The notes under the pieces: model-generated
Told to the model about the DNA's origin: nothing
What the model saw: only the letters and a program-made list of their open reading frames with translations
Database searches by the model: none
Position numbers and translations under genes: made by a program
Shown here: positions 3,752-47,808 of the stretch, piece by piece
Numbering within the stretch: position 1 is the first letter of the stretch
Layout: each line of letters begins with the position of its first letter
Assembly (NCBI GenBank): GCA_024401745.1
Contig: JAKSKK010000012.1
Coordinates: 1 to 57,945 of the forward strand
Length of the DNA stretch: 57,945 nt
DNA from: Bacteroidales bacterium
Lineage (GTDB): Bacteria; Bacteroidota; Bacteroidia; Bacteroidales; UBA932
Direction: 5' to 3'

Positions 3752-4894
3752 TTACAGTTCCAGCGCAGTCGAAGGGTGCTTGCCGTCGCCGTACCACATG
3801 TTCGTGACGGTGACAGGGATCTCGCTGTCCTTGGTCGTGAACATTATCGAAGTGAAGCCCTTGAGGGTTATGTCAGTAGAGAACCCCGGGAAGGTGATGA
3901 CGTAGGGGAATGACGAGTTGTTCGTCACCTGCACACGCTTGTTGCCCTTAGAATCGGCGCTCACTACCTTGCAGCTCACTGCTGCCTTGAAGAAAGCCTT
4001 GAGCAGCTCCTCGCTGCCGGCAATGTCGCCGTATGCGTATGCGAGGGTGCGCTGGTTCTCCATAGCCTCACGTATAGCCTCCAGAGAGTTGTCCTTCGCG
4101 AGGATGAGGGTCATGTCGCGGAACATCCCATAGTTGCCGTACCTTTCCTGGCTGGTGATGTGAAGGTCGCTGCCGCAGGAGACGTACAGACCCAGATTGG
4201 TGGCCTTCTCTATGATCTCAGGATAGAACTCGTACGAGTTGAATACCTCCACGCCGCTGATAAGCCCTTCAGCCAGAGCGGCTTCGGCCGTCGAGGTGAA
4301 CTCGTTGTCGGGTCTTGCCCAGCCGGGATGGTTGATCTGGATGATGGCGTTCTGCTTCTTCGCATTGCGTATGGACTGCAGAGCATCTTCATCGTGGATG
4401 AGATTGTTGTCGGTGGTGAAGAGGGCGTTGAAGTGGCCGACCTCCATGGGGCTGCGGGTGATCTCGATTCCCGGGATCAGGGTGATGCCGAGGCTGTTCG
4501 CCGTGCCCCTGGCGCCATTGACCGAGTAGTTCATGTCAGTCTTGTAGCGGTCGTCGTCCTTTACCTTGATGTTGTCGGCAAGGTAAGTCTCGAAGGCGCC
4601 CACGTTGGGCCTGACCTCGATGTGGTCCGTTATCGCAATGGCGTCCAGACCATTCTGCCATGCCTCGGTGACGCGGGCAGACGACGTCAGATTGCCGTCG
4701 GAATAGATGGTGTGGACATGCAGGTCTGCCTTGATGACGTTATAGCCATTTACCTGAGGCAGAACGATTTCCGTGCGTGTGGAGATGACCGGATAGGTGA
4801 GCATGGACGGGTTCTTCCTGTCCTGCTGGCGCTGCTGTGCCTGTACGCTGATACAGATGGAGCAAAGCAGCATGATGATAAGTGTCTTTTTCAT
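3752..4894 (-). CDS. Secreted PHP-domain metal-dependent phosphoesterase
   Basis: The 380-residue protein has a Sec signal peptide cleaved near SVQA/QQ (residues 19-20). The PHP signature follows: DLHVHTIYSDG (His59 and His61 as likely metal ligands), then AITDHIEV near residue 92 and a late CGSDLH. PHP proteins hydrolyse phosphate mono- or diesters with two or three metals. This one is exported, unlike HisK-type PHP enzymes, and is the last gene of the SusCD operon, 9 nt after the GDPD gene. I infer a periplasmic phosphoesterase that handles products of the upstream enzymes; the exact substrate is not evident. Confidence 0.8.
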   Translation of the reverse strand: MKKTLIIMLLCSICISVQAQQRQQDRKNPSMLTYPVISTRTEIVLPQVNGYNVIKADLHVHTIYSDGNLTSSARVTEAWQNGLDAIAITDHIEVRPNVGAFETYLADNIKVKDDDRYKTDMNYSVNGARGTANSLGITLIPGIEITRSPMEVGHFNALFTTDNNLIHDEDALQSIRNAKKQNAIIQINHPGWARPDNEFTSTAEAALAEGLISGVEVFNSYEFYPEIIEKATNLGLYVSCGSDLHITSQERYGNYGMFRDMTLILAKDNSLEAIREAMENQRTLAYAYGDIAGSEELLKAFFKAAVSCKVVSADSKGNKRVQVTNNSSFPYVITFPGFSTDITLKGFTSIMFTTKDSEIPVTVTNMWYGDGKHPSTALEL

Positions 4895-4903
4895 TTTGCA
4901 AGA

Positions 4904-6076: not shown

Positions 6077-6099
6077 GATTGTCTGTCTAAAATATCAGT

Positions 6100-7392: not shown

Positions 7393-7393
7393 C

Positions 7394-9004: not shown

Positions 9005-9016
9005 GTATGTGGAATG

Positions 9017-11527: not shown

Positions 11528-11549
11528 CGGTAGTTGAATTGAAATAAAA

Positions 11550-11580
11550 TATAGAGGCCGCCTGGCCGGCGGCCTCTATA
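11550..11580 (-). promoter_or_regulatory. Strong intercistronic hairpin inside the SusCD operon
   Basis: TATAGAGGCCGCC (11550-11562) pairs perfectly over 13 bp with 11568-11580 across a 5-nt loop. On the minus strand the stem is followed by a T-rich stretch (TTTTATTT). It sits in the 65-nt gap between the second binding-protein gene and the first enzyme gene. It may be a partial terminator or an RNA-stabilising processing site that lets surface proteins be made in excess over the enzymes. Confidence 0.75.
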
Positions 11581-11592
11581 GAATGAGTGATA

Positions 11593-13263: not shown

Positions 13264-13287
13264 AATCTTGTTCATTGTAAATCAGGA

Positions 13288-16179: not shown

Positions 16180-16209
16180 AACCTTATTGATATTATCGTG
16201 CATAAATCA

Positions 16210-18003
16210 TTAATTGGTACCCTTGCCATCATCCCAGCCGGGGTTCTGTACAAGGTTGCTGCCATTAAGACGGAGCTCCTGGAGAGGGAGGGGATAGAGG
16301 TAGTCCCTGTTCTCGTCCCATACTGCAGGGTCGCTGTTCTTGAACTTCTCGATCATACCTGACTCGCCGTCGCTGAGGAAGATCTCCTCGTCGATCTTGA
16401 GGACTACAGGTGCTGAGGTAGAAGGCTTGTCGGTGGTGTAGAGGCATACGTCCACTGAGCCGTTCTGGTCGAGGTCATACTCGCCGGGGCCGGGGAAGTA
16501 CATGCCGTAGAGGGGAGCACAGAGTGCCTGACCCTCCTTCCAACGCATGAGGTCGAAGTATCTGAAACCTTCCTGGTTGAGCTCGCAAAGGCGCTCGCGG
16601 CGGATCTCGAGGATCACGGGGTCGGTGACGTGGGTGTAGCCGCCCCACTTGGGATCGGTAAGGAAAGGATCGGCGGTGACGTCAAGGGTGAGCTTGCCTG
16701 CATCGGCGATGCCTGCTCTCTTACGGAGTGCGTTGATGGTGATGTCGAGGTCGTCCTGGGTGATGGTGCCGAGCTCGGCCTTTGCCTCAGCGTAGTTGAG
16801 GAGGATCTCACCTGCACGGAAGAGGATGAGGTCGACGTCTGACTGACCGTGAACATCCTTGTCCTCTGTCATGAGGAACTTGGTAGGCTGGTAGCCTGAT
16901 ACACAGTTGTTGAGGTCGGGCGCAATCTGCTTCTCGTTGCCGATACGGTGGTAACCAGGATAGCGGATGCTCTGAGCAAGACGAGGATCGCGGTCCTTCA
17001 GCTCATCGGCGAACTGCATCTTCTCCCAGTCAGCCTTGTCGGTAAAGCGTGAACCGTCCTTCATGAGGTAAGAGGCGACAGCCTTGCGGTTCATGCCGGT
17101 AGCACCCTCACCAGAGGTGAGCAGACAAGCGTGAAGTCTGTGCATTGTTCCGTATGTCGAGCTGTAGTTGCGTGCAAGGATGACCTCAGTGGTAGTGTTG
17201 CTTCCACCGTAGTTGTTTGCGGTGAAGAGGTCGAAGTAGTCATGATCGGGTGCACCGGTGGTGTAGAGTGAGTAGCCGCTCTCCTTCATGAAGAGTGCAG
17301 ATGCGTCTGCACAGAGGCCCAGGAGCCTTGTTGCATTGGCCTGATCGATGCCATGGTACTTCTCGAAGGTTCCTTCGAACAGACATACGCGTGACTTGAG
17401 TGCCAGTGCTGTCCATGAAGTGATGGTGTAGACTGACTTGGTCTTTGAAAGCTGCTCGATTGCGCAGTCGAGGTCGGCAATCACGTTGTCGATGACGAGC
17501 TTTCTGTCATCCTGAGTCTTGTAGAGAGACTCGTCGTCTGAACCGAGAGGTGCGTCGTACCAGGGAACATTGCCGAAGCGTCTTACCTTCTCGAAGTAGA
17601 AGTATGCCCTGAAGAAGCGTGCAAGGCCTTCATACTGGGCGGCAACTGCTTTGTCTTCGCAAAGATAGAGGTCTGCAAGCAGGGTGTTGATGTCACGAAG
17701 AGTGCCCCAGCTGCTCCACTCACCTGTTCCGTTAGGTGCGGGGATGCGGTTGCCTGTGATGGCGTCGAGCCTCTTGTTCTTGAAGTAGTTGTCGGCGGCA
17801 TCGAGGCAGCAAAGGGCTGCGTTCTCATAGCTGCTGGCGCTGGGAAGGATGGTATAGAAAGTATTGCTGAATGCGCTGAGACCGCTTGTTGACGAGAAGA
17901 GAGTCGTTTCGGACAGTTTGTCAAGAGGATACTTCTCCAGACTTTCAGTGCAGGAAACGGCGAACATAGCAGTGAGCGCGATGAATAAAAATATCTTTTT
18001 CAT
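16210..18003 (-). CDS. SusD/RagB family nutrient-binding outer membrane lipoprotein
   Basis: The 597-residue lipoprotein (MFAVSC, Cys18) has hallmark SusD features: ARFFRAYFYFEKVRRFGNVPW in the TPR region, LILFRAGEILLNYAEAKAEL, INALRKRAGI, ILEIRRERLCELNQEGFRYF and DLMRWKEG, with a C-terminal PLPLQELRLN. SusD proteins form the lid of the SusC transporter and bind the polymer. It lies 11 nt after susC and is cotranscribed with it. Confidence 0.95.
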   Translation of the reverse strand: MKKIFLFIALTAMFAVSCTESLEKYPLDKLSETTLFSSTSGLSAFSNTFYTILPSASSYENAALCCLDAADNYFKNKRLDAITGNRIPAPNGTGEWSSWGTLRDINTLLADLYLCEDKAVAAQYEGLARFFRAYFYFEKVRRFGNVPWYDAPLGSDDESLYKTQDDRKLVIDNVIADLDCAIEQLSKTKSVYTITSWTALALKSRVCLFEGTFEKYHGIDQANATRLLGLCADASALFMKESGYSLYTTGAPDHDYFDLFTANNYGGSNTTTEVILARNYSSTYGTMHRLHACLLTSGEGATGMNRKAVASYLMKDGSRFTDKADWEKMQFADELKDRDPRLAQSIRYPGYHRIGNEKQIAPDLNNCVSGYQPTKFLMTEDKDVHGQSDVDLILFRAGEILLNYAEAKAELGTITQDDLDITINALRKRAGIADAGKLTLDVTADPFLTDPKWGGYTHVTDPVILEIRRERLCELNQEGFRYFDLMRWKEGQALCAPLYGMYFPGPGEYDLDQNGSVDVCLYTTDKPSTSAPVVLKIDEEIFLSDGESGMIEKFKNSDPAVWDENRDYLYPLPLQELRLNGSNLVQNPGWDDGKGTN

Positions 18004-18014
18004 GATGCGATCTT

Positions 18015-21000
18015 TTAGAATGTCAAGTCAATACCGAACATGAATGTCTTCTGGAAGCGATAGTTCGCAAGGTTGCTCTGTGCTGCACAGAGTTCGGGAT
18101 CGATGTACTTGCTGAAGTGCAGGTTGTTGGCGATGAATCCGAGGTTCTCTCCGGTGAAGTATACCCTGAGGTTGCTGATCTTTGCCTTGTCAAGAAGCTT
18201 CTTGGGAAGGGTGTAACCAAGGGTGAGGTTCTTCAGACGGCAGTAGCCGATGTCCTGGAGATACTGGGTGTTGTAGATTGAGAGTGCTCGTGTACCGAGA
18301 GCGATGTATCCACGAGGACGGGGGAGGTAAGCGTCGGGGTTCTCCTCGCTCCAGCATTCGTCGAGGAAGCCGGGAACAAGCAGAGTTGAATAAGGACGGC
18401 AGAAAGGTCCCCAGAAGAGCTCGGCTTCGCTGCCGGGATACCAGTCACGGTGACCTACGCCCTGGAGGAACATTGAGAAGTCGATTCCGCAATAGTCGAA
18501 TCCGAGGGTGATACCATACTGGTGGCGGGGCTGTGAGTTACCGATGATGCGCTTGTCACCAGGGTTGTCCGCTGTGCCTGCACCGTTGTCGATCTTGCCG
18601 TTTCCGTCAAGGTCGATGTACTTCATGTCACCTGCGAGCCATCCCTGTGAAGGAGCTGAGAAGATACGGTCACCGACTACGGTGAGGTCGACTGCCTCCT
18701 GATATGCCCTAGCCTCTTCGTCGGTCTTGAAGAATCCGTCGACTGTGTATCCCCAGATCTCGCCGAGGGTCATGCCCGGGTAGTAGTCGTTGAGGTTGTG
18801 GTCAGGGTTGGCGTACTTGGTGATCTTGCTGAGGAAGTCGTTGTAAACCAACGTTACATTGTAGTGGAAAGGATGATTTCCGAGGTTGAACTGATCTCTC
18901 CATGAGAGAGAGAGCTCAATACCCTTGGTCCTCATGTCGGCAGCATTGGTCTCAGGCTCTGATGCACCATAGACTGCAGGGAGGCTTGCGCTCTGGGTAA
19001 GCATGCCCCTGGTGTCACGGATGTAGGCTTCACCGGTGAAGTTCAAACGGTTGTTGAACATTCCGAGGTCGATACCGAGGTTGTGCTGAACTGAGGTCTC
19101 CCATGTGAGGTTGCCGGCAACGGGGTCACCCAGTGATGCGCTTGAGGGCTTGTCTCCTCCGAAGAGGTAGCTCTGCTTGCCCATGCTGACTTTACGGATG
19201 TAGTCATAGTAACCTACCTGCTGGTTTCCGAGCTGACCGTAAGAGTAGCGGATCTTTGCAAGGTTGACGGTGTGCTTGATGGGTGCGAAGAAGTTCTCCT
19301 CAGAGATCTTCCAACCGATTGAACCTGAAGGGAAGAAGCCCCAGCGGTCTGCAGCGGGGAAGCGTGAGGTACCGTCGTAACGGCCGCTGAGCTCGAGGAG
19401 GTACTTGCCCTTGTAGTCGTAGTTGATACGTCCGAAGTAACCTGCGAGTGCATATTCGTTCTGACCGCCGCCTACGTCGGTGCGCCTTGTGTTCTCGGCA
19501 CCCTTTGCAGCGAGCTCGGGATCCTCACCGATGAGGTTGAGGTCGTCGAGTTCCTCAGACATGAGGCTCCATCCGTATGCCGTTACGCTCTGGATGTGCT
19601 GGGTCTCGTAGTTGAAACCGGCCATGACCTTGAGGTTGTGTGCGTCAGCGAAGGTGTCCTGGTATGTTGCATAGATGTTCGCTGCGTGGTACTTCTGCTC
19701 TCCCAGTGACTCGGTGAGCTTGTTGTCGTACTTGTCAAGGGGAGTCATGACGCCAGGTGCGCCTGAATACTCGACCTCGACTGTGCGGTTCGTGTTGTGC
19801 TTGTTGTACTGGCTGTAAGTGTAGTTAGCCTTGATCTCCAACTGCTTGATGGGATGGATGGTCATCTCGAAGGTGTTGGTGAACTGAGATCCCTTGTCCT
19901 TGTTCCTGAAGTTGGGGTTGTTCATGTACAGCGATGCACCGTCGGCAACGGTGTAGTTGTTGTACTTGGTGAGGTAGACGGGGGTGCCGTCAGGGTTCTC
20001 GGTAGGATAGCTGGCAAGAGCGTGCAGACGGATGTTGTAGAATGAGTTGTTGACGCCGCTGATACCGGGATAAGCGTAGTTGCTTGAGAAGAATGAGGTG
20101 TTGTTGCTTACGTTCAGCCACTCGGTCACGTCGACGGAGATCTTGCTGCGGAGGTTGTACTTTCTGTACTTGTCGGCATCTCCTGCGAGCATACCCTCAG
20201 TCTCGTTGTAGTTTCCTGAGAGGAAGTACTTCACGTTCTTGTTGCCGCCGCTGAGTGTGAGAGCATGGTTCTGCATGGGGTTGACATCGTCATACATCCA
20301 ATGGTACCAGTCTGAGTTAGCGTAGTAGTTGTATACGTCCTGGCCACCTTCGTTGGTGACGACAACCCAGGGACGCTCAGGATTCTCGACCTTGTCGTGA
20401 CGGCGGGCCCAGAGTTCTTCCATGTCGGCATCGCTGTACTTTGCGTATGCGGTACCGTCGTATGCGTTCCAGAAAAGGTTGTTGACGTAGACGTTCCAGT
20501 AACCTGAAGTCTCATAGTCTGTGCTGGTGGTAGGAGTCGCGAAACCGAAGCGGCCGCTGTAGCTGAGGACGGGCTTGCCGTCGTCGCTGCCGGTCTTGGT
20601 TGTGACGAGGATCACACCTGCGGAAGCACGTGCACCGTAAATGGCTGCTGCTGATGCATCCTTGATGACAGAGATGGAAGCAACGTCGTTGGGGTTGAGT
20701 CTGTTGAGGTCACCCTCCACGCCGTCGATGAGGACGAGGGGATCACCACCGTTGATTGAGTTCACACCACGGATGTTGATGCTTGCTGATTCGCCGGGGC
20801 GACCTGATGATGAGGTGATGGTAAGTCCGGGGACAACACCCTGGAGCATGTGGCCCACGTCGATGGCGGAGCGGTTGGAAAGCTCATCCGAGTCCACGAC
20901 TGTGAGGGCACCGGTAAGGTTGCTCTTCTTCTGAGAACCGTAACCTACGACAACCGTTGCGTCGAGGGTCTCAGCATCATCCTCAAGAGTGATGGTGATG

Positions 21001-21275
21001 TTGTCCTCTCCGGTGAGGGCTACAGTCTGTGTGAGATAACCGAGGCAGGAAACTTCAATGGCTGAAGTTCCGGCCGGGATTGAGATGGAGAAGTTACCGT
21101 CTGCGTCGGCAACAGCTCCTTGAGTGGTGCCCTGAGGTATCACTACGGCGCCCGGGATTCCATATCCCATGTTGTCCTTTACGATACCATGAAGCACTCC
21201 GCCATTGCTCTGGGCGAACAGTGACTGTCCGAACAGAAGCAGTGACAAGATAACTGCAAATGTCAGTTTCTTCAT
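18015..21275 (-). CDS. SusC/RagA family TonB-dependent outer membrane transporter
   Basis: The 1086-residue protein has a signal peptide ending LFAQS, a carboxypeptidase-regulatory-like domain (about 24-110; HGIVKDNMGYGIPGAVV), a plug domain (about 115-235; VVVGYGSQKKSNLTGA, SINIRGVNSINGGDPLVLID) and a beta-barrel ending in FMFGIDLTF. SusC-type receptors import oligosaccharides across the outer membrane using TonB energy. It is the first gene of the nine-gene operon, 227 bp downstream of the DUF6377 gene and separated from it by a terminator. Confidence 0.95.
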   Translation of the reverse strand: MKKLTFAVILSLLLFGQSLFAQSNGGVLHGIVKDNMGYGIPGAVVIPQGTTQGAVADADGNFSISIPAGTSAIEVSCLGYLTQTVALTGEDNITITLEDDAETLDATVVVGYGSQKKSNLTGALTVVDSDELSNRSAIDVGHMLQGVVPGLTITSSSGRPGESASINIRGVNSINGGDPLVLIDGVEGDLNRLNPNDVASISVIKDASAAAIYGARASAGVILVTTKTGSDDGKPVLSYSGRFGFATPTTSTDYETSGYWNVYVNNLFWNAYDGTAYAKYSDADMEELWARRHDKVENPERPWVVVTNEGGQDVYNYYANSDWYHWMYDDVNPMQNHALTLSGGNKNVKYFLSGNYNETEGMLAGDADKYRKYNLRSKISVDVTEWLNVSNNTSFFSSNYAYPGISGVNNSFYNIRLHALASYPTENPDGTPVYLTKYNNYTVADGASLYMNNPNFRNKDKGSQFTNTFEMTIHPIKQLEIKANYTYSQYNKHNTNRTVEVEYSGAPGVMTPLDKYDNKLTESLGEQKYHAANIYATYQDTFADAHNLKVMAGFNYETQHIQSVTAYGWSLMSEELDDLNLIGEDPELAAKGAENTRRTDVGGGQNEYALAGYFGRINYDYKGKYLLELSGRYDGTSRFPAADRWGFFPSGSIGWKISEENFFAPIKHTVNLAKIRYSYGQLGNQQVGYYDYIRKVSMGKQSYLFGGDKPSSASLGDPVAGNLTWETSVQHNLGIDLGMFNNRLNFTGEAYIRDTRGMLTQSASLPAVYGASEPETNAADMRTKGIELSLSWRDQFNLGNHPFHYNVTLVYNDFLSKITKYANPDHNLNDYYPGMTLGEIWGYTVDGFFKTDEEARAYQEAVDLTVVGDRIFSAPSQGWLAGDMKYIDLDGNGKIDNGAGTADNPGDKRIIGNSQPRHQYGITLGFDYCGIDFSMFLQGVGHRDWYPGSEAELFWGPFCRPYSTLLVPGFLDECWSEENPDAYLPRPRGYIALGTRALSIYNTQYLQDIGYCRLKNLTLGYTLPKKLLDKAKISNLRVYFTGENLGFIANNLHFSKYIDPELCAAQSNLANYRFQKTFMFGIDLTF

Positions 21276-35872: not shown

Positions 35873-37414
35873 ATGACCACAAAAACGAAACTGACTATAG
35901 GAGTGCTTGCAGGACTGTGCGCCGGCCTGGCGATAATGGCCGCCGTCAACAGCCTGTTCATCAGCACTTCAACGAACGACAGCTGCATGTCCTGCCACGT
36001 CCACGAGGACGCCGACAACAGCTACGCCAAAGGCCATCATTTCCTTAACGACAGCGGCACTAAGACCGACTGCGCCGCCTGCCATCTCCCTCCCGAGGAC
36101 CATCAGATAAAGCACGCCCTGGTAAAGACCAAGGTGGGCGTGAAGGACCTCTTCTCCTACGTCTTCAAGAAGAAGGAGAATCTCGACTGGGAGCACCGCG
36201 GCGAGCTCGAGTATGCCCGCGGCATAGTCTACAACGAATCCTGCAGGGAGTGCCACGTGAACCTCTACCCTCAGGGCATCTCCGACGACGGCATATCGGC
36301 CCACCTCTACTACGAAGCCAACGAGGCCCAGGTCAAGGACCTCCACTGCATAAACTGCCACCTGGACGCAGGCCACTACAACCCCAACTACTCGCATGCG
36401 AAGATGGCCGGCGTGCCCTATAGGAAGGGTAGCCGCCACAAGGATGCTGCGGCCCATCTATACCAGGCTCCCGCGACTGTCGAGGCTTTCGAGAACTTCA
36501 CCGAGACCATCCCAGGCACCGACGCCAGCATAAGGATGGTTGCGATCCCCGCCGGCTCCTTCATGATGGGTTCTCCTAAGAACGAGCAGCTCCGCGCCGG
36601 CGACGAAGGCCCTCAGCACAAGGTCAACATCTCCCGCTTCTTCATGAGCGAGGTGGAGGTGACATGGGACCAGTACTGGGCATTCTACGGCGAGACCATG
36701 TCGGAGGGTCACACCCCGCCCGAGAAGGTCTACGCCAACAACTCACGCCCCGACCTCGACGCTGTCTCAGGCCCCACGGCGCCCTTCGGCAACCCTGACC
36801 AGGGCTGGGGAATGGACGAGGACCGTCCCGCCCTCACCATGACGCACTACGCAGCCGAGACCTTCTGCCTCTGGCTCTCGCTCAAGACAGGCAGGAAGTA
36901 CCGCCTCCCGACCGAGGCCGAGTGGGAGTACGCGGCACGTGCCGGCAGCCAGGACGCCTATCCCTTCGAGGGCAAGCCCAAGCAGTACACTTCCGAAGGC
37001 CTTGCAAAGAAGATCTTCGGCACCGATACCACAGTCATCAAGCGCTACGCCGTTTACAAAGAGACCAGCAAGGGCCGCACTCAGTCGCCCAACACAGTGA
37101 AAGCCAACGCTTTCGGCCTGAAGAACATGGCCGGCAACGTGCTCGAGTACTGCTCTGACTGGTACGCTCCCGACTATTACACCGAGGCCGAGGTGACCGA
37201 CCCCAAGGGCCCCGAGACCGGCACCGAGCATGTGGTGCGCGGCGGCCTGTATGCCGACGACGCTGCCTTGCTCCGCAGTGCGTCCCGCGGCAGCACCCAC
37301 CACGACGCATGGCTCAGCACCGACCCCCAGAACCCCAAGAGCATCTGGTGGTATTCCGACATAAAGGGCATAGGCTTCCGAGTCGTGTGCGAAGTACCTG
37401 AATCGATCAAATAA
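35873..37414 (+). CDS. Tetrahaem NapC/NirT-type cytochrome fused to an FGE-like (SUMF1) domain
   Basis: The 513-residue protein has one N-terminal transmembrane helix (about 8-30), then four CxxCH haem sites: CMSCH (38-42), CAACH (67-71), CRECH (124-128) and CINCH (159-163), as in NrfH/NapC quinol dehydrogenases. From about residue 220 it continues as a SUMF1 fold: VAIPAGSFMMGSP, MSEVEVTWDQYWAFY, YRLPTEAEWEYAARAG, NMAGNVLEYCSDW, IGFRVVCE. The two active-site cysteines of true formylglycine-generating enzyme are absent around VVRGGLYADDAALLRSAS, so sulfatase maturation is unlikely. I infer a quinol-linked electron carrier with a periplasmic substrate- or partner-binding module. Confidence 0.85.
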   Translation: MTTKTKLTIGVLAGLCAGLAIMAAVNSLFISTSTNDSCMSCHVHEDADNSYAKGHHFLNDSGTKTDCAACHLPPEDHQIKHALVKTKVGVKDLFSYVFKKKENLDWEHRGELEYARGIVYNESCRECHVNLYPQGISDDGISAHLYYEANEAQVKDLHCINCHLDAGHYNPNYSHAKMAGVPYRKGSRHKDAAAHLYQAPATVEAFENFTETIPGTDASIRMVAIPAGSFMMGSPKNEQLRAGDEGPQHKVNISRFFMSEVEVTWDQYWAFYGETMSEGHTPPEKVYANNSRPDLDAVSGPTAPFGNPDQGWGMDEDRPALTMTHYAAETFCLWLSLKTGRKYRLPTEAEWEYAARAGSQDAYPFEGKPKQYTSEGLAKKIFGTDTTVIKRYAVYKETSKGRTQSPNTVKANAFGLKNMAGNVLEYCSDWYAPDYYTEAEVTDPKGPETGTEHVVRGGLYADDAALLRSASRGSTHHDAWLSTDPQNPKSIWWYSDIKGIGFRVVCEVPESIK

Positions 37415-37424
37415 CCACAATATT

Positions 37425-38765
37425 ATGAAAACAAAGAACATCAACCGCAGAGAGTTCCTTACCAGCACTGCAAAGATCGGTGCTGCAGGAATGGTTGCAC
37501 CCGCTCTCCTCACCTCATGCGCAGGCAGCAAGAAGAACACTCCCTATCGCGCAGAAGGAACTTACTATGTACCTGAACTTCCCGACAAGGCAATCGACGG
37601 CCGTGAGCTGAAGGTCGGCCTCGTTGGCTGTGGCGGCCGTGGATCCGGCGCCATCCAGAACCTTCTTCACGCAGCTGACGGCATCACCGTCCTCGCTCTT
37701 GGCGACGTATTCGAGGACAGGCTCAACGGCGCACGCGAGATGCTTGCCAACGACTACGACCAGAAGGTTGCCGACGAGAACTGCTTCATCGGTTTCGACG
37801 CATATCAGAAGGTCATCGACTCAGGTGTCGACATGGTGATCCTCGCAACACCTCCCGCATTCCGTCCCGACCAGTTCAAGTACGCAGTCGAGAAGGGCGT
37901 TCACGCTTTCCTCGAGAAGCCTATCGCAGTTGATGCAAAGGGATACCGCACATGTATGGCAGCAGCCAAGATGGCTCAGGCAAAGGGTCTGTCAGTCATC
38001 ACCGGTACACAGCGTCACCACCAGCGCCCCTACGTTGAGGCATTCAAGCTCATCCAGCAGGGCATGATCGGTGAGATTACCGGTGGTAATGTATATTGGA
38101 ACCAGGGTCAGCTCTGGTACCGCGAGCGTGAGAAGGGTTGGAGCGACATGGAATGGATGATCCGTGACTGGGTAAACTGGACATGGCTCTCAGGTGACCA
38201 TATCGTCGAGCAGCACGTACACAACATCGACGTATTCATGTGGATGACCGGCCTTACCCCCATTTCAGCTACCGGAATCGGTGCAAGGCATCGCCGCGTG
38301 ACCGGAGACCAGTACGACCAGTTCAGCGTCGACTTCGACTTCGGCAAGGGCATCCATCTGCACAGCATGTGCCGCCAGATCAACGGCACCAGCACCAACG
38401 TATCCGAGAGAATCAACGGTACAAAGGGCTACTGGAACAGCGATGACGAGACCATCCGCGACCTTCAGGACAACATCCTCTGGGAGTACAAGGAAGACCC
38501 TGCATTCCAGCAGAACGACGCCTACACCCTCGAGCACGTCGACTGGGTCAATCATATCCGCAAGGGCACCGCACACGAGGAGGCAACAGGCACCGCACAG
38601 TCATCTCTCGCTGGTGTAATGGGCCGCGAGGCTGCATACACAGGCCAGACCATCGAGTGGGAGCAGATCAGCGCATCTGACCTCGACCTCATGCCCGAGA
38701 AGCTCGAGATCGGTCCTATGGACATGAGCAATTACAAGGTTCACGTACCCGGAGGCGACGAGTAG
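37425..38765 (+). CDS. Tat-exported Gfo/Idh/MocA family oxidoreductase
   Basis: The N-terminus INRREFLTSTAKIGAAGM followed by APALLTSC is a twin-arginine signal with a lipobox. The Rossmann motif VGLVGCGGRGSG (about 65-76) and the catalytic FLEKPIAVD identify the Gfo/Idh/MocA family, which oxidises or reduces sugars with tightly bound NAD(P). Tat export fits a protein folded around its cofactor. It starts 10 nt after the cytochrome fusion and is followed 1 nt later by a Tat-exported epimerase. I infer periplasmic oxidation of a sugar or glycoside with electrons passed to the cytochrome. Confidence 0.88.
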   Translation: MKTKNINRREFLTSTAKIGAAGMVAPALLTSCAGSKKNTPYRAEGTYYVPELPDKAIDGRELKVGLVGCGGRGSGAIQNLLHAADGITVLALGDVFEDRLNGAREMLANDYDQKVADENCFIGFDAYQKVIDSGVDMVILATPPAFRPDQFKYAVEKGVHAFLEKPIAVDAKGYRTCMAAAKMAQAKGLSVITGTQRHHQRPYVEAFKLIQQGMIGEITGGNVYWNQGQLWYREREKGWSDMEWMIRDWVNWTWLSGDHIVEQHVHNIDVFMWMTGLTPISATGIGARHRRVTGDQYDQFSVDFDFGKGIHLHSMCRQINGTSTNVSERINGTKGYWNSDDETIRDLQDNILWEYKEDPAFQQNDAYTLEHVDWVNHIRKGTAHEEATGTAQSSLAGVMGREAAYTGQTIEWEQISASDLDLMPEKLEIGPMDMSNYKVHVPGGDE

Positions 38766-38766
38766 T

Positions 38767-39678
38767 ATGGAGCGCAGAGATTTCTTCAAGACTTCGCTTA
38801 CTGCAGCAGCTGCAGTATCAGCGCTTTCAGTCCCCACTCTCCTCACCGGCTGCACTCCCAAGCCTGAGGTGAAGGCGAACGACACCAAGCTCCACCTGTC
38901 CTTCCAGAGCGGAACCACAGGCAAGGAGACATACGCCGAGAAGTTCGACATGATGGAAGAGCTCGGCATTGAGGGCTTCGAGCCCGGCGGAATGGAGCTC
39001 GTGGAGAATGCCAACGAGATAGCACAGGCTCTCAAGGGCCGCAATATCAAGGTCAGCGCCCTCTGCGCAGGCTTCGACGGCTTCATCCTCTCGAAGGATG
39101 CAGCCATCAAGGCTTCATTCGACAGCACCATGCGCGAGATCATCGACGCAGGCGGCCAGTTCGGCTCTACCGGCGTGATCATGGTTCCCGCATTCAACGG
39201 GCAGGCAGAGACCGCAATGCCCCATACCCAGGAGACCCGCGACTACCTCTGCGAGGAACTCCGCAAGCTCGGTGAGTACGCTCTCTCAAAGGGCACTACC
39301 GTCATCCTCGAGCCCCTCAACCGCGACGAGGCATTCTACCTCCGCCTCGTTTCCGACGCTGCTGCAATCTGCCGCGACGTGAACTGCGAGGGCGTGAAGT
39401 GCATGGGCGACTTCTGGCACATGAAGGAAGAGACTTCCGACTATGCTGCCTTCATCGCAGCAGGCAAGTACCTGCAGCACGTTCACATGGCCAGCCGTGG
39501 TCACAGGCGCATGCCCGGTGAGGACGGCGAGCTCGACAACTACGTCGACGGATTCCGCGCTCTCAAGGAGATGGGATACGACAAGTACGTAAGCTTCGAG
39601 TGCGGATGTGACGGCGACCGTGCCGTTGCTGTTCCCGCAGCTGTGGCCCTGCTTCGCGAGCAATGGGCAAAGGCATAA
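38767..39678 (+). CDS. Tat-exported sugar phosphate isomerase/epimerase-like TIM barrel
   Basis: MERRDFFKTSLTAAAA followed by LLTGC is a twin-arginine lipoprotein signal. The 303-residue protein then shows the AP-endonuclease-2 type TIM barrel: ELGIEGFEPGGMEL, VILEPLNRDEAFY, CMGDFWHMKEE, LQHVHMASRGHRRMPGE and VSFECG, with Glu, Asp and His residues that usually bind a metal. These proteins act as sugar isomerases, epimerases or 3-keto-sugar lyases. It follows the oxidoreductase by 1 nt and its end overlaps the CcsA-type gene by 16 nt, indicating one operon. Confidence 0.85.
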   Translation: MERRDFFKTSLTAAAAVSALSVPTLLTGCTPKPEVKANDTKLHLSFQSGTTGKETYAEKFDMMEELGIEGFEPGGMELVENANEIAQALKGRNIKVSALCAGFDGFILSKDAAIKASFDSTMREIIDAGGQFGSTGVIMVPAFNGQAETAMPHTQETRDYLCEELRKLGEYALSKGTTVILEPLNRDEAFYLRLVSDAAAICRDVNCEGVKCMGDFWHMKEETSDYAAFIAAGKYLQHVHMASRGHRRMPGEDGELDNYVDGFRALKEMGYDKYVSFECGCDGDRAVAVPAAVALLREQWAKA

Positions 39679-40637
39679 GGATATTGATGCATGTGGCCGC
39701 CGTTCTCGTCGTGTTCGGCGGCCTTTACAGCATATTTGCAAAGCAGAAGGTCGTGGTGATGGCCGGCTATGATGAGCCCGCCATGCTCCGCGGCTTTCCT
39801 TATGCACTCACTCTCAAGGATTTCCGCATAGCGCGCTACGAGTCCGGCAGTCCGCTGGACTATACTTCGGTCCTGGAGGCGAAGAGCCTCGACGGCCAGG
39901 TGGTGGAAGCCACCGTCAGCGTCAATGCTCCCGCAAGGCTGGGGCGCTGGCGCATCTATCAGCAGGGTTATGACGTCGCGGCAGGGGAGCAGACCAGCTA
40001 TTCCGTGCTGCAGTGCGTCAAGGACCCTCTCTATCCTCTCATCGCCATCGGCCTCTGGCTGCTGATAGTCTCGGCCGCCCTGTACGCCCTTTTCACCCTG
40101 CTTCACGTGAGCGCGAAAGGCTGGATATGGGCAGCGACTGCCGTGGTCTTCGCCCTGTTCGTGTACAGCACGATGAAGAGCGTCGGGATTGGCAGCAGGG
40201 ACCTCGTGCCCGTGCTCCGCAGCGGATGGTTCATCCCGCACATAGTGTCCTACATGTTCGCTTACGCCATGCTGGCGGTCACCACTGTGCTTGTGGCTGT
40301 GCTCGCTGTGCGTTCGCGCCGCCACGAGGTCAGCCGCGGCGCCTGGCTGCTCGGCCGCAGGTTCTGCAGCGTGGGCTGGGCCTTCCTCACCATAGGCATG
40401 TGCATGGGCGCCCTCTGGGCAAAGCAGAGCTGGGGCGACTGGTGGACCTTCGACCCCAAGGAGATCTGGGCGCTCCTTACCTGGATTGCCTTCGGTGCCT
40501 ATTTCCACCTGGAGCCCAGGATGACCAGGGGATGGAAAACTGCGGTAATCATTGCAGCTTTCCTGCTGCTGAACATGTGCTGGTGGGGAGTGAATCTTCT
40601 TCCGTCGGCAGGCAGCCTCCACACCTATGCAATGTGA
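39663..40637 (+). CDS. CcsA/ResC-type cytochrome c assembly protein with short ResB-like N-terminus
   Basis: The 324-residue protein starts with one TM helix and a periplasmic ResB-like segment (about 30-120; KDFRIARYESGSPLDYTS, GRWRIYQQGYD). It continues with several TM helices and the haem-handling WWD motif WGDWWTFDPKEIW (257-269), with flanking histidines such as IPHIVSY (His193). CcsA proteins deliver haem to apocytochromes c at the outer face of the inner membrane. Placed here it probably attaches haem to the tetrahaem protein encoded upstream. Its ATG lies inside the preceding gene (16-nt overlap). Confidence 0.85.
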   Translation: MGKGIRILMHVAAVLVVFGGLYSIFAKQKVVVMAGYDEPAMLRGFPYALTLKDFRIARYESGSPLDYTSVLEAKSLDGQVVEATVSVNAPARLGRWRIYQQGYDVAAGEQTSYSVLQCVKDPLYPLIAIGLWLLIVSAALYALFTLLHVSAKGWIWAATAVVFALFVYSTMKSVGIGSRDLVPVLRSGWFIPHIVSYMFAYAMLAVTTVLVAVLAVRSRRHEVSRGAWLLGRRFCSVGWAFLTIGMCMGALWAKQSWGDWWTFDPKEIWALLTWIAFGAYFHLEPRMTRGWKTAVIIAAFLLLNMCWWGVNLLPSAGSLHTYAM

Positions 40638-40648
40638 GGAAAAAACAT

Positions 40649-40656
40649 TATATTTG
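40649..40656 (+). promoter_or_regulatory. Possible -7 box (TATATTTG) before tatA
   Basis: TATATTTG ends 24 nt before ATG 40681. No TTTG is found at -33, as that position falls in the coding end of the ccsA-like gene. It may give tatAC independent expression in addition to read-through. Confidence 0.4.
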
Positions 40657-40680
40657 TAAACTTTGATAAACCTATTGGAT

Positions 40681-40899
40681 ATGCATAACATTTTATTCCT
40701 TCAGAATCTTGGCGCAGGTGAGATCGTCATCATCGCTCTTGTTATCCTTCTTCTTTTCGGTGGTAAGAAAATTCCCGAGCTCATGAAGGGCCTTGGAAAG
40801 GGTGTGAAGAGCTTCAAGGACGGCATGGCTGACGTCGAGAAGGAGATAGGAAACCTCGACGAGGAAGTCAAGAAGCCCTCTGAGCCCAAGAAAGACTAA
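40681..40899 (+). CDS. tatA: Twin-arginine translocase subunit TatA/E
   Basis: ATG 40681 is preferred over an upstream TTG. The 72-residue protein has a short N-terminus, one TM helix ([20 protein letters not shown]) with the conserved hinge [16 protein letters not shown], an amphipathic helix, and a charged Lys/Glu tail. TatA oligomers form the export pore. No separate TatB is seen, which is usual in Bacteroidetes. It directly follows genes for two Tat substrates and precedes tatC by 8 nt. Confidence 0.95.
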
Positions 40900-40907
40900 G
40901 ACATATA

Positions 40908-41735
40908 ATGGCTGAGGAAGAGGATCAGGAGCTCGAGACTGGCGAGGCCATGACGTTTTGGGACCATCTGGAAGTTCTCAGGTGGTCGATTTTCCGTATA
41001 GCTATCGCTCTGTTCATCGCCATCGTGGCTTGCTTCATTGCAATGCCACACATATTCGACAGCTTCATCCTGGGCCCCACTGACGGCAATTTCTTCCTCT
41101 ACAGGCTGCTGTCGTTCGGCGGAGACGGCCCCAAGGGAGGGCTCATGCCCGACTTCTCCTCCGACTTTCACGTAGACATCATCAACATCAATGTGGCCAG
41201 CCAGTTTCTGACCCACATCAGCACCTCGTTCTGGCTCTCGCTGGTGATCGTCTTCCCCTACATGATATATGAGATCTGGAAGTTTCTCAAGCCTGCCCTC
41301 TACGAGAACGAGGAGAAGAGCGTGAAGCTCGCATTCGCGTGCGGCACCGTCCTCTTCTTCATCGGCTGCGCCATCGGCTACTGCGTGATCTTCCCCGTGA
41401 CCTTCAGGTTCCTGACAGGCTATACCGTGGGCAACAGCATCACAAACCAGATCTCGCTGAACTCCTACATGTCGAACTTCCTCACGCTCGTGTTCATAAT
41501 GGGCGTGGTGTTCGAGATCCCCATGCTCGCCTGGGTGCTCTCACGCATGGGCCTGCTGTACAAGGATACGCTCAAGGGCATACGCAGATACGCTGTGGTG
41601 GTCCTGCTGGTCCTTGCCGCCCTCATAACCCCCTCCGGCGACCCCTTCACCCTCTCGCTGGTATTCCTGCCCCTCTACCTCCTCTATGAGCTGTCGATAG
41701 TGGTCGTCAGGAAGCGCCCGTTGGAAGAGGAATAG
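40908..41735 (+). CDS. tatC: Twin-arginine translocase subunit TatC
   Basis: The 275-residue polytopic protein has TatC landmarks: MTFWDHLEVLRWSIFRIAIA at the N-terminus, a periplasmic segment, VIVFPYMIYEIWKFLKPALY, ENEEKSVKLAF, and VFEIPMLAWVLSRMGLL, followed by ITPSGDPFT. TatC recognises the twin-arginine motif. It completes a minimal TatAC pair beside two genes whose products carry twin-arginine signals. Confidence 0.96.
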   Translation: MAEEEDQELETGEAMTFWDHLEVLRWSIFRIAIALFIAIVACFIAMPHIFDSFILGPTDGNFFLYRLLSFGGDGPKGGLMPDFSSDFHVDIININVASQFLTHISTSFWLSLVIVFPYMIYEIWKFLKPALYENEEKSVKLAFACGTVLFFIGCAIGYCVIFPVTFRFLTGYTVGNSITNQISLNSYMSNFLTLVFIMGVVFEIPMLAWVLSRMGLLYKDTLKGIRRYAVVVLLVLAALITPSGDPFTLSLVFLPLYLLYELSIVVVRKRPLEEE

Positions 41736-44457: not shown

Positions 44458-45348
44458 TTACTTCACGAAGGGTGCTGCGATGAGGTACTCAGCTGACTCC
44501 TTGCAGGTGCGGAGGATTCCGCCTTCTTCCTCAGGGTAGCTTGAGCCTTCCATCTCGACTACGATGTCCTGGGTGCCGGAAGTCTCGAAGTTGCCAAAGA
44601 TGGCGTCGAAGCCGACCTTGCCGCTCTGACCAACCTCAGCAACGTCCTTGATGTGCAGACAGGTGAAGCGGCCGGGATACTTCTTGAAATACTCCACGGG
44701 GCTTACGCGTGCGTTGTCTGCCCAGTATACGTCCATCTGGAAGAATACGAGCTCGGGATCGGTGTTCTGAACCATGAAGTCGTAAGCGGGAACGCCCTCT
44801 ACCTCGTTGAACTCATGTGAGTGGTTGTGGTAGCCGAACTGCATTCCGTTCTCCTTCACGAGCTTGCCGATTGCGTTCATGTAGTCGCATACGACCTTGA
44901 GGTCCTTGAGGTTGTCGGGAATGTTGATGCCGGGAGCGACCATGTACTTCATGCCGGCTGCCTTGTGGCAGGCGATAGCCTCTTCCCACCAGGGCATTGC
45001 TGCAGAGAAGTCACCGCTTGCGATCTCCTCGTCCTCGAGGTAGCGAACTACGTGTGAAGAGAGGGTCTTGAGACCAGCTGCCTTGATGGCTGCCTTGAAC
45101 TCCTCGCCTGTAAGGCCGTAGAGCTTGCCTTCGCCATAGCATGCAGCCTCAACTGAGGTGTAGCCATAGTCAGCGATTGCCTTGAGTGTAGCCTCGCTGT
45201 TCTTTGCGAACTTCTCAGGGTTGCCGATGAGGTCTCTTACTGAATAGAGCTCGATGCCGATTTCCTTCTTGGCTGCCTCCTGCTCCTTGGGAGCGGCGCA
45301 TGATGCCAGAGCTACGGCTGCAATTGCGAAAAGTGCTATCTTGCGCAT
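44458..45348 (-). CDS. Lipoprotein sugar isomerase/epimerase-like TIM barrel
   Basis: The 296-residue lipoprotein (VALASC, Cys17) has the AP-endonuclease-2 TIM barrel: IGIELYSVRDL, YGYTSVEAACY, MQFGYHNHSHEFNEVEG, FFQMDVYWADNA, RFTCLHIKD and DIVVEMEGSS, with conserved His, Glu and Asp ligands. Homologues encoded beside DUF1080 and Gfo/Idh/MocA genes take part in the 3-keto-glycoside route as isomerase or lyase/hydratase. The Sec lipoprotein signal places it in the periplasm or on the surface. It is the last gene of a three-gene operon, 2 nt after the DUF1080 gene. Confidence 0.85.
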   Translation of the reverse strand: MRKIALFAIAAVALASCAAPKEQEAAKKEIGIELYSVRDLIGNPEKFAKNSEATLKAIADYGYTSVEAACYGEGKLYGLTGEEFKAAIKAAGLKTLSSHVVRYLEDEEIASGDFSAAMPWWEEAIACHKAAGMKYMVAPGINIPDNLKDLKVVCDYMNAIGKLVKENGMQFGYHNHSHEFNEVEGVPAYDFMVQNTDPELVFFQMDVYWADNARVSPVEYFKKYPGRFTCLHIKDVAEVGQSGKVGFDAIFGNFETSGTQDIVVEMEGSSYPEEEGGILRTCKESAEYLIAAPFVK

Positions 45349-45350
45349 GT

Positions 45351-46202
45351 CTAGAGCTCTTTTACGCGGATGTTACGATACCATACAACGTCGCCGTGAT
45401 CCTGGAATCCGAGGTAACCCTCGTGGTTCTCGCCACCGCAGTTGTTGAGAAGCTCGAATGCGAGAGGCCATGCCTCCTCGCTGAACTTGCTGGCCTGGAG
45501 CATCTCTGTCCAGCGCGGGGTCCACAAGTGATACTCGAGGACGTTCTCGTCGTTCTGGTAGTGAACAACGGTGCCCTGGAATACCATGATCTTGCCCTTG
45601 TTCCACTCACCGTAGGGGTTCTGGTTCTGGGGCTTTGCAGGGATCATGTCATAGAGGGAAGCTGACTTGCGGTTGCCGTCGACACCGAGGAATGAATCGG
45701 GATGATTCTCGTTGTCGAGGATCTGGTACTCGGGGCATGAGATGTAGATAGGCTCATACTGGTCCTCACCCTTGTCGTTCTTTGTGGTGACTTCCTGTGC
45801 AAGGTAGAATACGCCTGAGTTGGCAGCCTTCTCGACCTTCCATTCGAATTCGAAGATGAAGTTCTTGAACTTGTGAGCGAAGATGAGGTCGCCACCGTCG
45901 CCTTCCTGTGCCTCGCCGCCGCCGGTGCCGTTGAATGTGATGCATCCGTCAACGATGGCCCACTTTGAAGGAACGCGGTCCTTGCCATAGCCTCTCCAGC
46001 CATTGAATGTCTCGCCGTCGAAGATCTGGATGAATCCCTCTTCGTCGGTGGTGAAGTCTGCGAGGTCTACCTGAGGAGCCTCGACTACGGTGTAAGCGGG
46101 AACGCCGCCTTCTTCAGCAGCCTTCTTGTTGTTGTTTCCGCCACATGATGCAACTGCGAATACGAGTGCGATAGAAGCAGCGATTACAAGTGCCTTTTTC
46201 AT
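45351..46202 (-). CDS. DUF1080 (3-keto-disaccharide hydrolase) lipoprotein
   Basis: The signal peptide ends FAVASC (Cys20). The 283-residue protein has the concanavalin-like DUF1080 fold with FIQIFDGETFNGWRGYG, KWAIVDGCITF, GDLIFAHKFKNFIFEFEWKV, NSGVFYLAQE and a final GYLGFQDHGDVVWYRNIRVK. The family includes 3-keto-glycoside hydrolases/lyases. It lies between genes for a Gfo/Idh/MocA oxidoreductase and a TIM-barrel isomerase, the expected partners: the oxidoreductase makes the 3-keto sugar, this enzyme breaks the glycosidic bond. Confidence 0.9.
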   Translation of the reverse strand: MKKALVIAASIALVFAVASCGGNNNKKAAEEGGVPAYTVVEAPQVDLADFTTDEEGFIQIFDGETFNGWRGYGKDRVPSKWAIVDGCITFNGTGGGEAQEGDGGDLIFAHKFKNFIFEFEWKVEKAANSGVFYLAQEVTTKNDKGEDQYEPIYISCPEYQILDNENHPDSFLGVDGNRKSASLYDMIPAKPQNQNPYGEWNKGKIMVFQGTVVHYQNDENVLEYHLWTPRWTEMLQASKFSEEAWPLAFELLNNCGGENHEGYLGFQDHGDVVWYRNIRVKEL

Positions 46203-46230
46203 TTTTGATATAAGATTTAGATGTTAGTGA

Positions 46231-47727
46231 CTAGTCCTGGGGCATCTCAGGAAGTGACCAGCCCTTGCGGTAGGTCTTCTTGATGAGGCTCTTTGCGTAT
46301 TCATTTGCATTGACGGGCTCTGTCCAGTCCTTGTTGAAGGTAGGGTGACCGTCGTGAATCTCGAAGCCGTCCTTGATGCATGTCTGGATCGTTGCATCGG
46401 CGGGGATGTTGGTGAACTCCATCTTCTCGCCGTCCCACTCGAGAACCTGGTTGAGGCCCTGGAGACGTACTGCGAGAACGCCCATTGCAACCATCTCGTT
46501 GAAAGGACCTGCCTCGCTGAAGTCTGAAGCGCTCTTTACACGTACTGAAGGATCCTCCTTGCAGGCACGGATCCAGTCCTGCTGGTGAGAGGTCTTGATC
46601 TCGCGGAGAACGTGGGGAACCTCAGGGTTGCGGCCTGAAAGGAGCCAGGGATTAACACCGTAGCAACCGCAGATGAGGGTGTCTTTTGTACCGTGGAAGA
46701 TGACGCATCCACCGGCGTCGTTGAGGTCGATGCCCTCGGGCAGACCCTTGAAGCGCTCGGGCTTGATGCCGCCGTCGTACCAGTATACGTCAACCTCGGG
46801 CATGGCAACCTTAGGCATGTTGTCACGTGCGGGGAAGGTGAACTTCACGGTCTGAGCTGAAGGACAGCAGTCGGTGAGGAGGAGGGTAGAGCTACCCTGG
46901 ACCTTGGTAGGATAACCGAGCTTGAGGCCCTTGAATACAGGGTGGAGGATATGGCAAGCCATGTCGCCGAGAGCGCCGGTACCGAAGTCCCACCAGCCGC
47001 GGAAGTTCCAAGGAGTGTAGATCTTGTTGTAGGGACGCATGGGAGCGGGTCCTACGAAGTTCTCCCAGTCGAGAGTGTCAGGAATGGGATCGGCAACCTC
47101 GGGACGGTTGAGGCCCTGGGGCCAGATAGGACGGTCGGTGAATGCCTCTACCTTGGTGACCTCGCCGATCTCGCCGTTCCAGATCCACTCACAGATCTTC
47201 CTTACGCCCTCGCCTGAAGCGCCCTGGTTACCCATCTGGGTAGCGACGTTGGCCTTCTTTGCGAGCTTGGTGAGCAGACGTGACTCATAGACTGTAAGGG
47301 TGAGGGGCTTCTCGCAGTATACGTGCTTGCCTGCTGCAAGAGCTGCTGCTGCGATGACTGCATGGGTGTGGTCTGCGGTTGCGATGACAACACCGTCAGC
47401 CTGGTCGAGAAGCTCGTCGAACATCACACGGTAGTCCTTGTATCTCTTTGCGTTGGGGTATTTCTCGAAGATATGCATTGCATAGTTCCAGTCAACGTCG
47501 CAGAGGCCGATGAATTCCTCGGTCTCCATCTCGGCGAGGTCAGCGGCGCCACGGCCACCGATACCTACTGCGAGGAGTTTGAGCTTGCGGTTAAGGGGTG
47601 CGGGAGGTACGTCCTTCTTTTTCTTGGGGTTCTTACCCATGAGGGCTGTAGGTGCTACTGCCAGACCGAGAGCTGCTGCAGAACCGGTCTTGAGGAATGA
47701 CCTCCTGGAGATGTCTTTTGATTCCAT
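46231..47727 (-). CDS. Tat-exported Gfo/Idh/MocA family oxidoreductase (3-keto-glycoside operon)
   Basis: ATG 47727 gives an N-terminus MESKDISRRSFLKTGSAAAL, a textbook twin-arginine signal, without a lipobox. The 498-residue protein has the Rossmann motif LAVGIGGRGAADL, the catalytic YCEKPLTLT, and family landmarks FRGWWDFGTGALGDMACHI and WIRACKEDPSVRV. It should oxidise C3 of a glycoside with bound NAD(P). Its Tat signal depends on the TatAC pair, which is encoded 5 kb away. It is the first gene of the operon with DUF1080 and the isomerase. Confidence 0.9.
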   Translation of the reverse strand: MESKDISRRSFLKTGSAAALGLAVAPTALMGKNPKKKKDVPPAPLNRKLKLLAVGIGGRGAADLAEMETEEFIGLCDVDWNYAMHIFEKYPNAKRYKDYRVMFDELLDQADGVVIATADHTHAVIAAAALAAGKHVYCEKPLTLTVYESRLLTKLAKKANVATQMGNQGASGEGVRKICEWIWNGEIGEVTKVEAFTDRPIWPQGLNRPEVADPIPDTLDWENFVGPAPMRPYNKIYTPWNFRGWWDFGTGALGDMACHILHPVFKGLKLGYPTKVQGSSTLLLTDCCPSAQTVKFTFPARDNMPKVAMPEVDVYWYDGGIKPERFKGLPEGIDLNDAGGCVIFHGTKDTLICGCYGVNPWLLSGRNPEVPHVLREIKTSHQQDWIRACKEDPSVRVKSASDFSEAGPFNEMVAMGVLAVRLQGLNQVLEWDGEKMEFTNIPADATIQTCIKDGFEIHDGHPTFNKDWTEPVNANEYAKSLIKKTYRKGWSLPEMPQD

Positions 47728-47773
47728 AAGATATAGTTTTAGATGTGATTTTGCATAAACGTACGAAATTAAC

Positions 47774-47808
47774 AAAAAAACTGCTGACTTTTATTCAAAA
47801 TCAGCAGT
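47774..47808 (-). terminator. Intrinsic terminator of the glycoside hydrolase operon
   Basis: ACTGCTGA-C-TTTT (47780-47792) pairs with AAAATCAGCAGT (47797-47808), leaving one bulged C and a 4-nt loop. On the minus strand it is followed by a run of seven T (47774-47780). It ends the GH operon 25 nt past its last stop codon. Confidence 0.85.

Follow-up and report, generated by a model that had tools for sequence, protein, structure and literature searches.

Which pathway is served by a run of six genes that sets a haem protein and two predicted exported enzymes beside a haem-attachment factor and a twin-arginine translocation (Tat) system, and do the six belong together at all? The run lies on the forward strand at positions 35873-41735 of a 57,945-nucleotide stretch of DNA (the window; contig JAKSKK010000012.1 of assembly GCA_024401745.1) from a gut Bacteroidales bacterium whose genome is 71.6% complete. 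It comprises a tetrahaem cytochrome fused to a domain like formylglycine-generating enzyme (FGE; 35873-37414, 513 residues), a Gfo/Idh/MocA oxidoreductase with a Tat-type lipoprotein signal (GFO1, 37425-38765; Pfam GFO_IDH_MocA), a xylose-isomerase-like TIM barrel with the same type of signal (TIM1, 38767-39678; AP_endonuc_2), a compact ResB-CcsA fusion (CcsBA, 39663-40637, 324 residues; ResB and Cytochrom_C_asm), tatA (40681-40899 from its ATG, with a TTG start at 40663 also possible; TatA_B_E) and tatC (40908-41735; TatC). The junctions are, in gene order, 10 nucleotides (nt), 1 nt, a 16-nt overlap, 43 nt (to the tatA ATG) and 8 nt. These open reading frames (ORFs), strands, families and gaps, read from the sequence and from Pfam, agree with the initial annotation, which had proposed a self-contained module for sugar oxidation. 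The reading that we put forward, and that we hold to be evenly balanced, is that the run would be an accessory redox-and-biogenesis block of a periplasmic 3-keto-glycoside pathway, whose gene set lies 2.7 kb past tatC on the opposite strand and was not connected with the run in the initial annotation. The evidence for this reading is all genomic: gene content, order, co-occurrence, domains and signals.

The cytochrome fusion follows the dehydrogenase of this pathway, the BT_2158-family glycoside 3-dehydrogenase, across genomes. In a set of 295 genomes from the order, 38 have the fusion, 76 a BT_2158-family protein over the model cut-off, and 37 both (Fisher p ~1e-24, a value that, like the one below, ignores shared ancestry and genome size). 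The 38 span 19 families and include a sole carrier without the dehydrogenase (G577). Full-length fusions were found in 13 of 61 relatives, and BT_2158 scored over its cut-off in 12 of these 13 carriers versus 15 of the 61 overall (p 3e-9). Across 392 genomes of the phylum, three carry the fusion (E < 1e-30) and 23 the dehydrogenase, with two shared. In the order Bacteroidales, the cytochrome fusion hardly exists without the pathway dehydrogenase.

To ask which part of the run is conserved is to ask which gene stays with the fusion. We compared 52 fusion loci (12 + 40 regions), spread over many families, with 80 named loci, the best 80 of at least 548 confirmed matches, which are nearly all metagenome-assembled genomes (MAGs) titled Alistipes, Cryptobacteroides, Rikenellaceae or other Bacteroidia-group organisms; the two sets overlap (L127 is the contig of L087). 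GFO1 is present in 50 of the 52 loci, directly downstream and on the same strand in 46, the two exceptions being a GFO1 cut off at a contig end (L090) and a locus with none (L319); in the named loci it comes next in 72 of 75. A TIM1-type gene occurs in 16 of the 52 and another TIM-barrel cluster in 11, and TIM1 is present in 68/72 named loci. Genes for haem attachment were found in two of the 52 (L087, L089) and beside the trio in 34 of the 66 named loci with enough downstream sequence, and tat genes near the fusion in none of the 52 and in 5/80. The six-gene order is thus not kept, and the word "self-contained" has to be dropped; the initial annotation had named, as counting against its model, a finding that most carriers of the oxidoreductase-cytochrome pair keep tatAC and ccsA at other places, and this is largely the case. 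As a candidate conserved unit the six-gene module was rejected, since only the cytochrome fusion and GFO1 are near-constant, and these two genes are the fixed unit across related families. Chance does not account for the arrangement, as the fusion is found in 19 families of the order with its GFO1 partner alongside. In five loci from distant families (L299, L317, L325, L329, L296), a ThuA-type cluster (PF06283) and extra Gfo genes stand beside the fusion, which points to keto-sugar metabolism.

The tat genes are tied to the pathway through the dehydrogenase operon. In L157 (2997-13441) and L160 (5471-16280), ten genes lie on one strand in the order cytochrome-FGE, GFO1, TIM1, ccsB, ccsA, tatA, BT2158, DUF1080, TIM2, tatC, mostly less than 100 nt apart; the spacer ahead of tatA is 192-207 nt long, and that ahead of tatC in L160 is 445 nt. 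L135 has the first nine of the ten and then nears its contig end, related runs occur in L195 and L172, and in G003 the fusion set and the 3-keto-glycoside set converge, as they do in the window. We inspected 58 tatC regions, one of them a repeat. BT2158, DUF1080 or TIM2 stands beside the tat genes in 14 of 20 named regions, which were hand-chosen from fusion carriers and are not a survey, and, the window not counted, in five of a further 37 distinct regions (G029, G012, G002, G054, and G021 via TIM2 only); in some of these genomes (G029, G012, G002, G054) the linked tatC is the only one found. Four of the 20 named regions are an unrelated locus (valS, thioesterase, tatA, tatC, ABC-F), L393 is a 5.4-kb contig without a pathway gene, and L389 reaches its contig end just upstream of tatC. 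A less biased figure comes from the 15 of the 61 genomes with BT_2158 over cut-off, in five of which, the genome of the window included, tatC lies within 10 kb of that gene. Thus, tatA and tatC are repeatedly built into the glycoside 3-dehydrogenase operon. The claim that haem-attachment and Tat genes travel with the sugar chemistry holds for some relatives (L157, L160). No printed account of Tat genes in a 3-keto-glycoside operon was found in our searches of open-licence papers. As a separate observation, the BT2158 gene beside tatAC in the G012 MAG (L100, 12035-13516) is interrupted by an in-frame TAG, which leaves two ORFs, and a second, stop-free copy lies on another contig of that genome.

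Could tatAC and ccsBA be ordinary neighbours, unlinked to the sugar enzymes? We consider this very unlikely, although tatAC also stands at the valS/thioesterase/ABC-F locus in many members of the genus, because the linkage in 14/20 named and 5/37 other regions, the ten-gene operon, and the position of linked rows in well-separated parts of the TatC tree all oppose it. In this quick tree of 91 rows, the TatC of the window falls in a 27-row group (support 98) with 14 linked and five unlinked rows, a separate 33-row group (99) contains 16 unlinked rows and none that is linked, and the linked TatC of G054 sits in a sister group with four unlinked rows. Five linked rows, of Alistipes type, group together at a distance on a long branch, the placement of which is unsure. 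The linkage label requires five changes on the tree versus a mean of 16.4 when shuffled, and G021 encodes two TatC proteins, one of either kind (L111, L352). The scatter of linked rows, with G054 in the sister group and the five Alistipes-type rows on their long branch, suggests that the tat-pathway linkage probably arose more than once. In the Alistipes-type loci (L394, L396, L397, L399, L400), the BT2158 signal reads SRADFL, with the second arginine lost, and the other complete BT2158 N-termini in the tatC regions read SRR; in their kin GFO1 has SRKDFL and TIM1 RKEFL. Their TatC proteins, in the same operon as BT2158, are 32-33% identical to that of the window (ORFs of 300-409 residues), and the signals suggest a Tat system with a relaxed motif. 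In L393 (3-3085, genome G725), two opposite ORFs of 193 and 414 residues, which we take to be integrase-like, lie upstream of tatC at the place of TIM2 in its kin.

The neighbouring set in the window, on the reverse strand, consists of a TIM barrel in the BT2156 position (TIM2, 44458-45348; assigned from Pfam, with its order conserved in relatives), a 3-keto-disaccharide hydrolase family protein of the BT2157 type (45351-46202; PF06439, the former DUF1080, 155 bits against a cut-off of 26.8) and the BT_2158-family glycoside 3-dehydrogenase with the Tat signal SRRSFL (46231-47775; NF058561, 828.7 bits, cut-off 750). The window therefore holds a glycoside 3-dehydrogenase, a PF06439 hydrolase/lyase and a TIM barrel together, and 44458-47775 is the gene set of a 3-keto-glycoside route, with C3 oxidation and elimination predicted; glycosidase-type genes continue after the dehydrogenase to 57067. 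These genes match the Bacteroides thetaiotaomicron set BT2156-BT2160, where the assignment of the numbers BT2156, BT2157 and BT2158 to the three neighbours is in part presumed. The available text of PMC9007349 describes BT2157 as hydrolysing 3-ketotrehalose and having one DUF1080 domain, and the route is set out in that of PMC13273386 as four steps: oxidation, elimination, hydration and a final reduction of the 3-keto sugar. Compared with the B. thetaiotaomicron pathway as these partial sources present it, the window adds the tetrahaem-FGE fusion, a second Gfo enzyme, CcsBA and TatAC.

What kind of protein is the fusion? A membrane-anchored NapC/NirT-type tetrahaem part (residues ~4-172) precedes an FGE-like (SUMF1/DUF323) domain (221-476), with 77 bits to Cytochrom_NNT (cut-off 24.1), 145.7 bits to FGE-sulfatase in Pfam, and CxxCH motifs at residues 38, 67, 124 and 159. 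The tetrahaem protein of the initial annotation is thereby borne out as a membrane cytochrome, with a Cytochrom_NNT domain and four CxxCH motifs placing it in the NapC/NirT type. All four motifs are present in 75 of 76 full-length named fusions and three in the remaining one. Nine histidines are invariant in 54 aligned fusions, four from CxxCH and five others, and are enough for bis-His ligation. In a profile search the cytochrome domain has NrfH (2j7a) as its best solved match; a phmmer search with this domain alone gave no match, so that the profile was required. NrfH shares with the fusion one N-terminal anchor, four haems and the Cytochrom_NNT domain. The fusion differs from it in the haem 1 motif, which is CxxCHxH in 54 of 54 fusions and CxxCHxM in 2j7a, in its C-terminal FGE-like domain, and in the lack of a detected NrfA in the 72%-complete genome, and with a score of 50.7 bits against TIGR03153 (cut-off 134.2) an identity as NrfH was rejected. 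NrfA is the usual partner of NrfH; as a partner here it was also rejected, scoring over cut-off in 2/13 fusion carriers and 8/48 non-carriers. Formylglycine-generating activity was rejected as well, as the catalytic cysteine pair, presumably the one that follows the RGGS motif and seen in 6s07, is missing in the alignment to 6s07 and in column counts.

The FGE-like domain itself, rather than GFO1, might be the haem redox or binding partner, as a PvdO-like dehydrogenase or a module for carbohydrate or protein docking. The domain is present in 54/54 aligned family members, its solved matches include PvdO and FGE structures, and the fusion scores 112.6 bits against the PvdO model (below the cut-off of 500). 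Without the catalytic cysteine pair, and with no conserved alternative active site apparent in the alignment, we regard this as improbable. No printed account of a cytochrome/FGE-like fusion was found in the same open-licence literature.

GFO1 is a member of the Gfo/Idh/MocA family by its Rossmann domain, glycine motif (GxGGRGxG) and EKP lysine. Both GFO1 (NRREFL...LLTSC) and TIM1 (ERRDFF...LLTGC) carry RRxF followed by a lipobox-like cysteine, and the Tat-type signals that the initial annotation had placed on the oxidoreductase and the TIM barrel were recovered. Its further label of "epimerase" was not: the TIM barrel stands, and the function is a fold-level label, with IolO the best NCBIfam match at 75 bits, where the cut-off is 300. 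GFO1 was rejected both as a BT_2158-family protein (NF058561, cut-off 750; no match at E 0.001) and as a BT_2159-type disaccharide 3-dehydrogenase (NF058563; 18.5 bits against 650). Inositol dehydrogenases are its best solved matches, and AAOR, DgpA and glucuronide-3-dehydrogenase are among the others; these matches leave room for a less likely alternative in which GFO1 is a redox-neutral oxidoreductase with a bound cofactor, like GFOR or AAOR, and the cytochrome serves another periplasmic partner. In Zymomonas glucose-fructose oxidoreductase (GFOR) the cofactor is bound and the cycle redox-neutral, and Caulobacter aldose-aldose oxidoreductase (AAOR) is assumed to work likewise (available text of PMC4628093); the four-step route, too, closes with 3-keto sugar reduction (PMC13273386, in the part available). 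What these enzymes share with GFO1 is an exported Gfo/Idh/MocA fold, whereas GFO1 is predicted to be a lipoprotein and its gene goes with that of a cytochrome, and its pairing with the cytochrome in 50/52 loci is hard to explain without cooperation between the two.

In their known families, CcsBA proteins of system II cytochrome c assembly attach c-type haem, and Tat exports folded, cofactor-bound cargo. The window CcsBA, which the initial annotation had called a CcsA-type assembly factor, does have a near-complete CcsA domain (10-207 of 212) but is a compact fusion whose ResB match covers only 155-269 of 486 positions; ResB matches in relatives are likewise partial. It is the only Cytochrom_C_asm match in its genome, and many relatives with ccs genes at this place carry ccsB and ccsA separately (two genes of 401 and 261 residues in L160). 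At about half the joint ccsB and ccsA length, the window gene has the 16-nt TIM1 overlap that is also seen for the stand-alone ccsB in L160, and its end resembles that of ccsA; its counterparts in G029 and L087 have 464 residues, and its shortness may reflect either natural compaction or a deletion. The tatC of the window is the only copy found in its genome, and TatA and TatC in the run together with twin-arginine signals on the cargo make up a Tat system, with RK (GFO1, TIM1) and RA (BT2158) variants of the signal in relatives.

How might these parts work together? TatAC would export the folded dehydrogenases loaded with nicotinamide adenine dinucleotide (NAD), namely the BT2158-type enzyme and GFO1, plus TIM1, and CcsBA would attach haem to the tetrahaem cytochrome. 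GFO1 and BT2158 would hold NAD(H), with GFO1 as the fixed partner that interacts with the cytochrome, which would link (keto-)sugar chemistry in the periplasm to the quinone pool by electron exchange. Electrons could move in either direction, drained when glycoside oxidation exceeds 3-keto sugar reduction, or fed back. Least certain are the direct transfer of electrons between bound NAD(H) and haem and the direction that it would take; the passage from hydride to haem is weak because bound NADH gives two electrons together and the run has no flavin relay. A balancing or reset role of the cytochrome seems to us more likely than a main respiratory flow. The stronger version, in which a Tat-exported Gfo dehydrogenase trades electrons directly with a quinone-linked cytochrome and couples glycoside cleavage to respiration, with its own Tat and haem genes in the operon (complete in L157 and L160), appears doubtful to us.

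A quinone link in general is supported by redox genes that recur in these loci. The genes cydAB lie near the fusion in three families (L087/L127, L121, L130, L132 and L139 in f1 or named kin; L096, L301 and L327 in f22; L296 and L306 in f140), as assigned by Pfam for L087 and L096 and by BLAST for the rest, and a CydA homologue is divergent from BT2158 in three f27 genomes (L274, L283, L227; BLAST), two of which have a DoxX homologue beside DUF1080 (Pfam for L274). Several kinds of membrane redox gene thus recur around the BT2158 dehydrogenase, which is better evidence for some link to quinones than for this cytochrome in particular. As for direction, NapC/NirT proteins by convention pass electrons from menaquinol through the cytochrome to a periplasmic acceptor, and GFO1 or another enzyme could then be a keto-sugar reductase. 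ImoA, a proposed quinone reductase, oxidises quinol pools in vivo (PMC9600427, in the part available). We think this direction unlikely here, since in four families cydAB or CydA stands beside the fusion or BT2158, which suggests a quinone that is reduced and then oxidised, and since with CxxCHxH at haem 1 in 54/54 fusions the NapC/NirT convention may fail to carry over.

Fusion-negative operons show further arrangements. Among five fusion-negative BT2158 regions, the order is DoxX, Gfo, BT2158, DUF1080, TIM2, ApbE, tatA, tatC in G054 and G549, and BT2158, DUF1080, TIM2, tatA, tatC in G457; the two operons with DoxX first and ApbE ahead of tatA-tatC lie in L110 (2408-10682) and L407 (2366-10387). 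G564 has DoxX, Gfo, BT2158 and DUF1080, and G484 a BT2159-type gene, BT2158, DUF1080 and TIM2, neither with tat genes in the stretch. The operons with DoxX and ApbE represent a possible flavin- or quinone-linked alternative; a simple pattern for the ApbE flavinylation target motif gave no match in three loci (L110, L407, L409).

Several observations weigh against an accessory role of the run in this pathway. The dehydrogenase occurs without the fusion in 39 of the 76 genomes of the order and in 21 of the 23 carriers phylum-wide, and the cytochrome is therefore not required for the pathway. BT2158 lies near the fusion in few loci (1/52, L092, a close homologue, and 4/80 named), and no tat gene was found within ~11 kb in two of four fusion-negative BT2158 regions. 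RK replaces RR in many relatives, the RR pattern being missing from GFO1 in 26/75 and from TIM1 in 23/70; an explanation by loss of Tat was unsupported, with a TatC match in 23 of 26 genomes with RK-type GFO1. No substrate is assigned to TIM1 or GFO1, the run encodes no relay between one- and two-electron transfer, flavin or other, and cydA was not detected in the 72%-complete window genome. The pathway can in principle be redox-neutral: GFOR is so, the route ends in a reduction, and net respiration is therefore not required. Finally, deletion of BT2157 or BT2158 in B. thetaiotaomicron gave no growth defect on raffinose-family sugars, according to the available text of PMC11501099.

Other known systems resemble parts of the locus. 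The membrane-bound, periplasmic lactose 3-dehydrogenase LacABC of Caulobacter, a flavoprotein/cytochrome enzyme, is a different dehydrogenase, and the window has Gfo/Idh/MocA enzymes in its place. What the two have in common is C3 oxidation in the periplasm, with glycosides as substrates, and a DUF1080 protein after it (as far as PMC9007349 is available). Tat genes co-located with their cargo are described for tatCd-phoD and the efeB/ywbN-linked tatCy of Bacillus subtilis (PMC3827258, available part), whereas the cargo in Bacteroidales is a sugar dehydrogenase operon. Elsewhere in the window (3752-21275, reverse strand) lies a locus for a TonB-dependent receptor that also has genes for GDPD, a phosphodiester glycosidase, a tyrosine-phosphatase-like protein and a PHP-domain protein; it may handle phosphodiester-linked glycans.

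Periplasmic 3-keto-glycoside cleavage is a recently described way of breaking glycosides in gut bacteria. The pair of cytochrome and Gfo enzyme is a concrete candidate for the redox link that would keep bound NAD(H) in the right state outside the cytoplasm, and the presence of tatA and tatC inside the dehydrogenase operon names the likely export route, providing a natural case of a Tat system that travels with one set of cargo.

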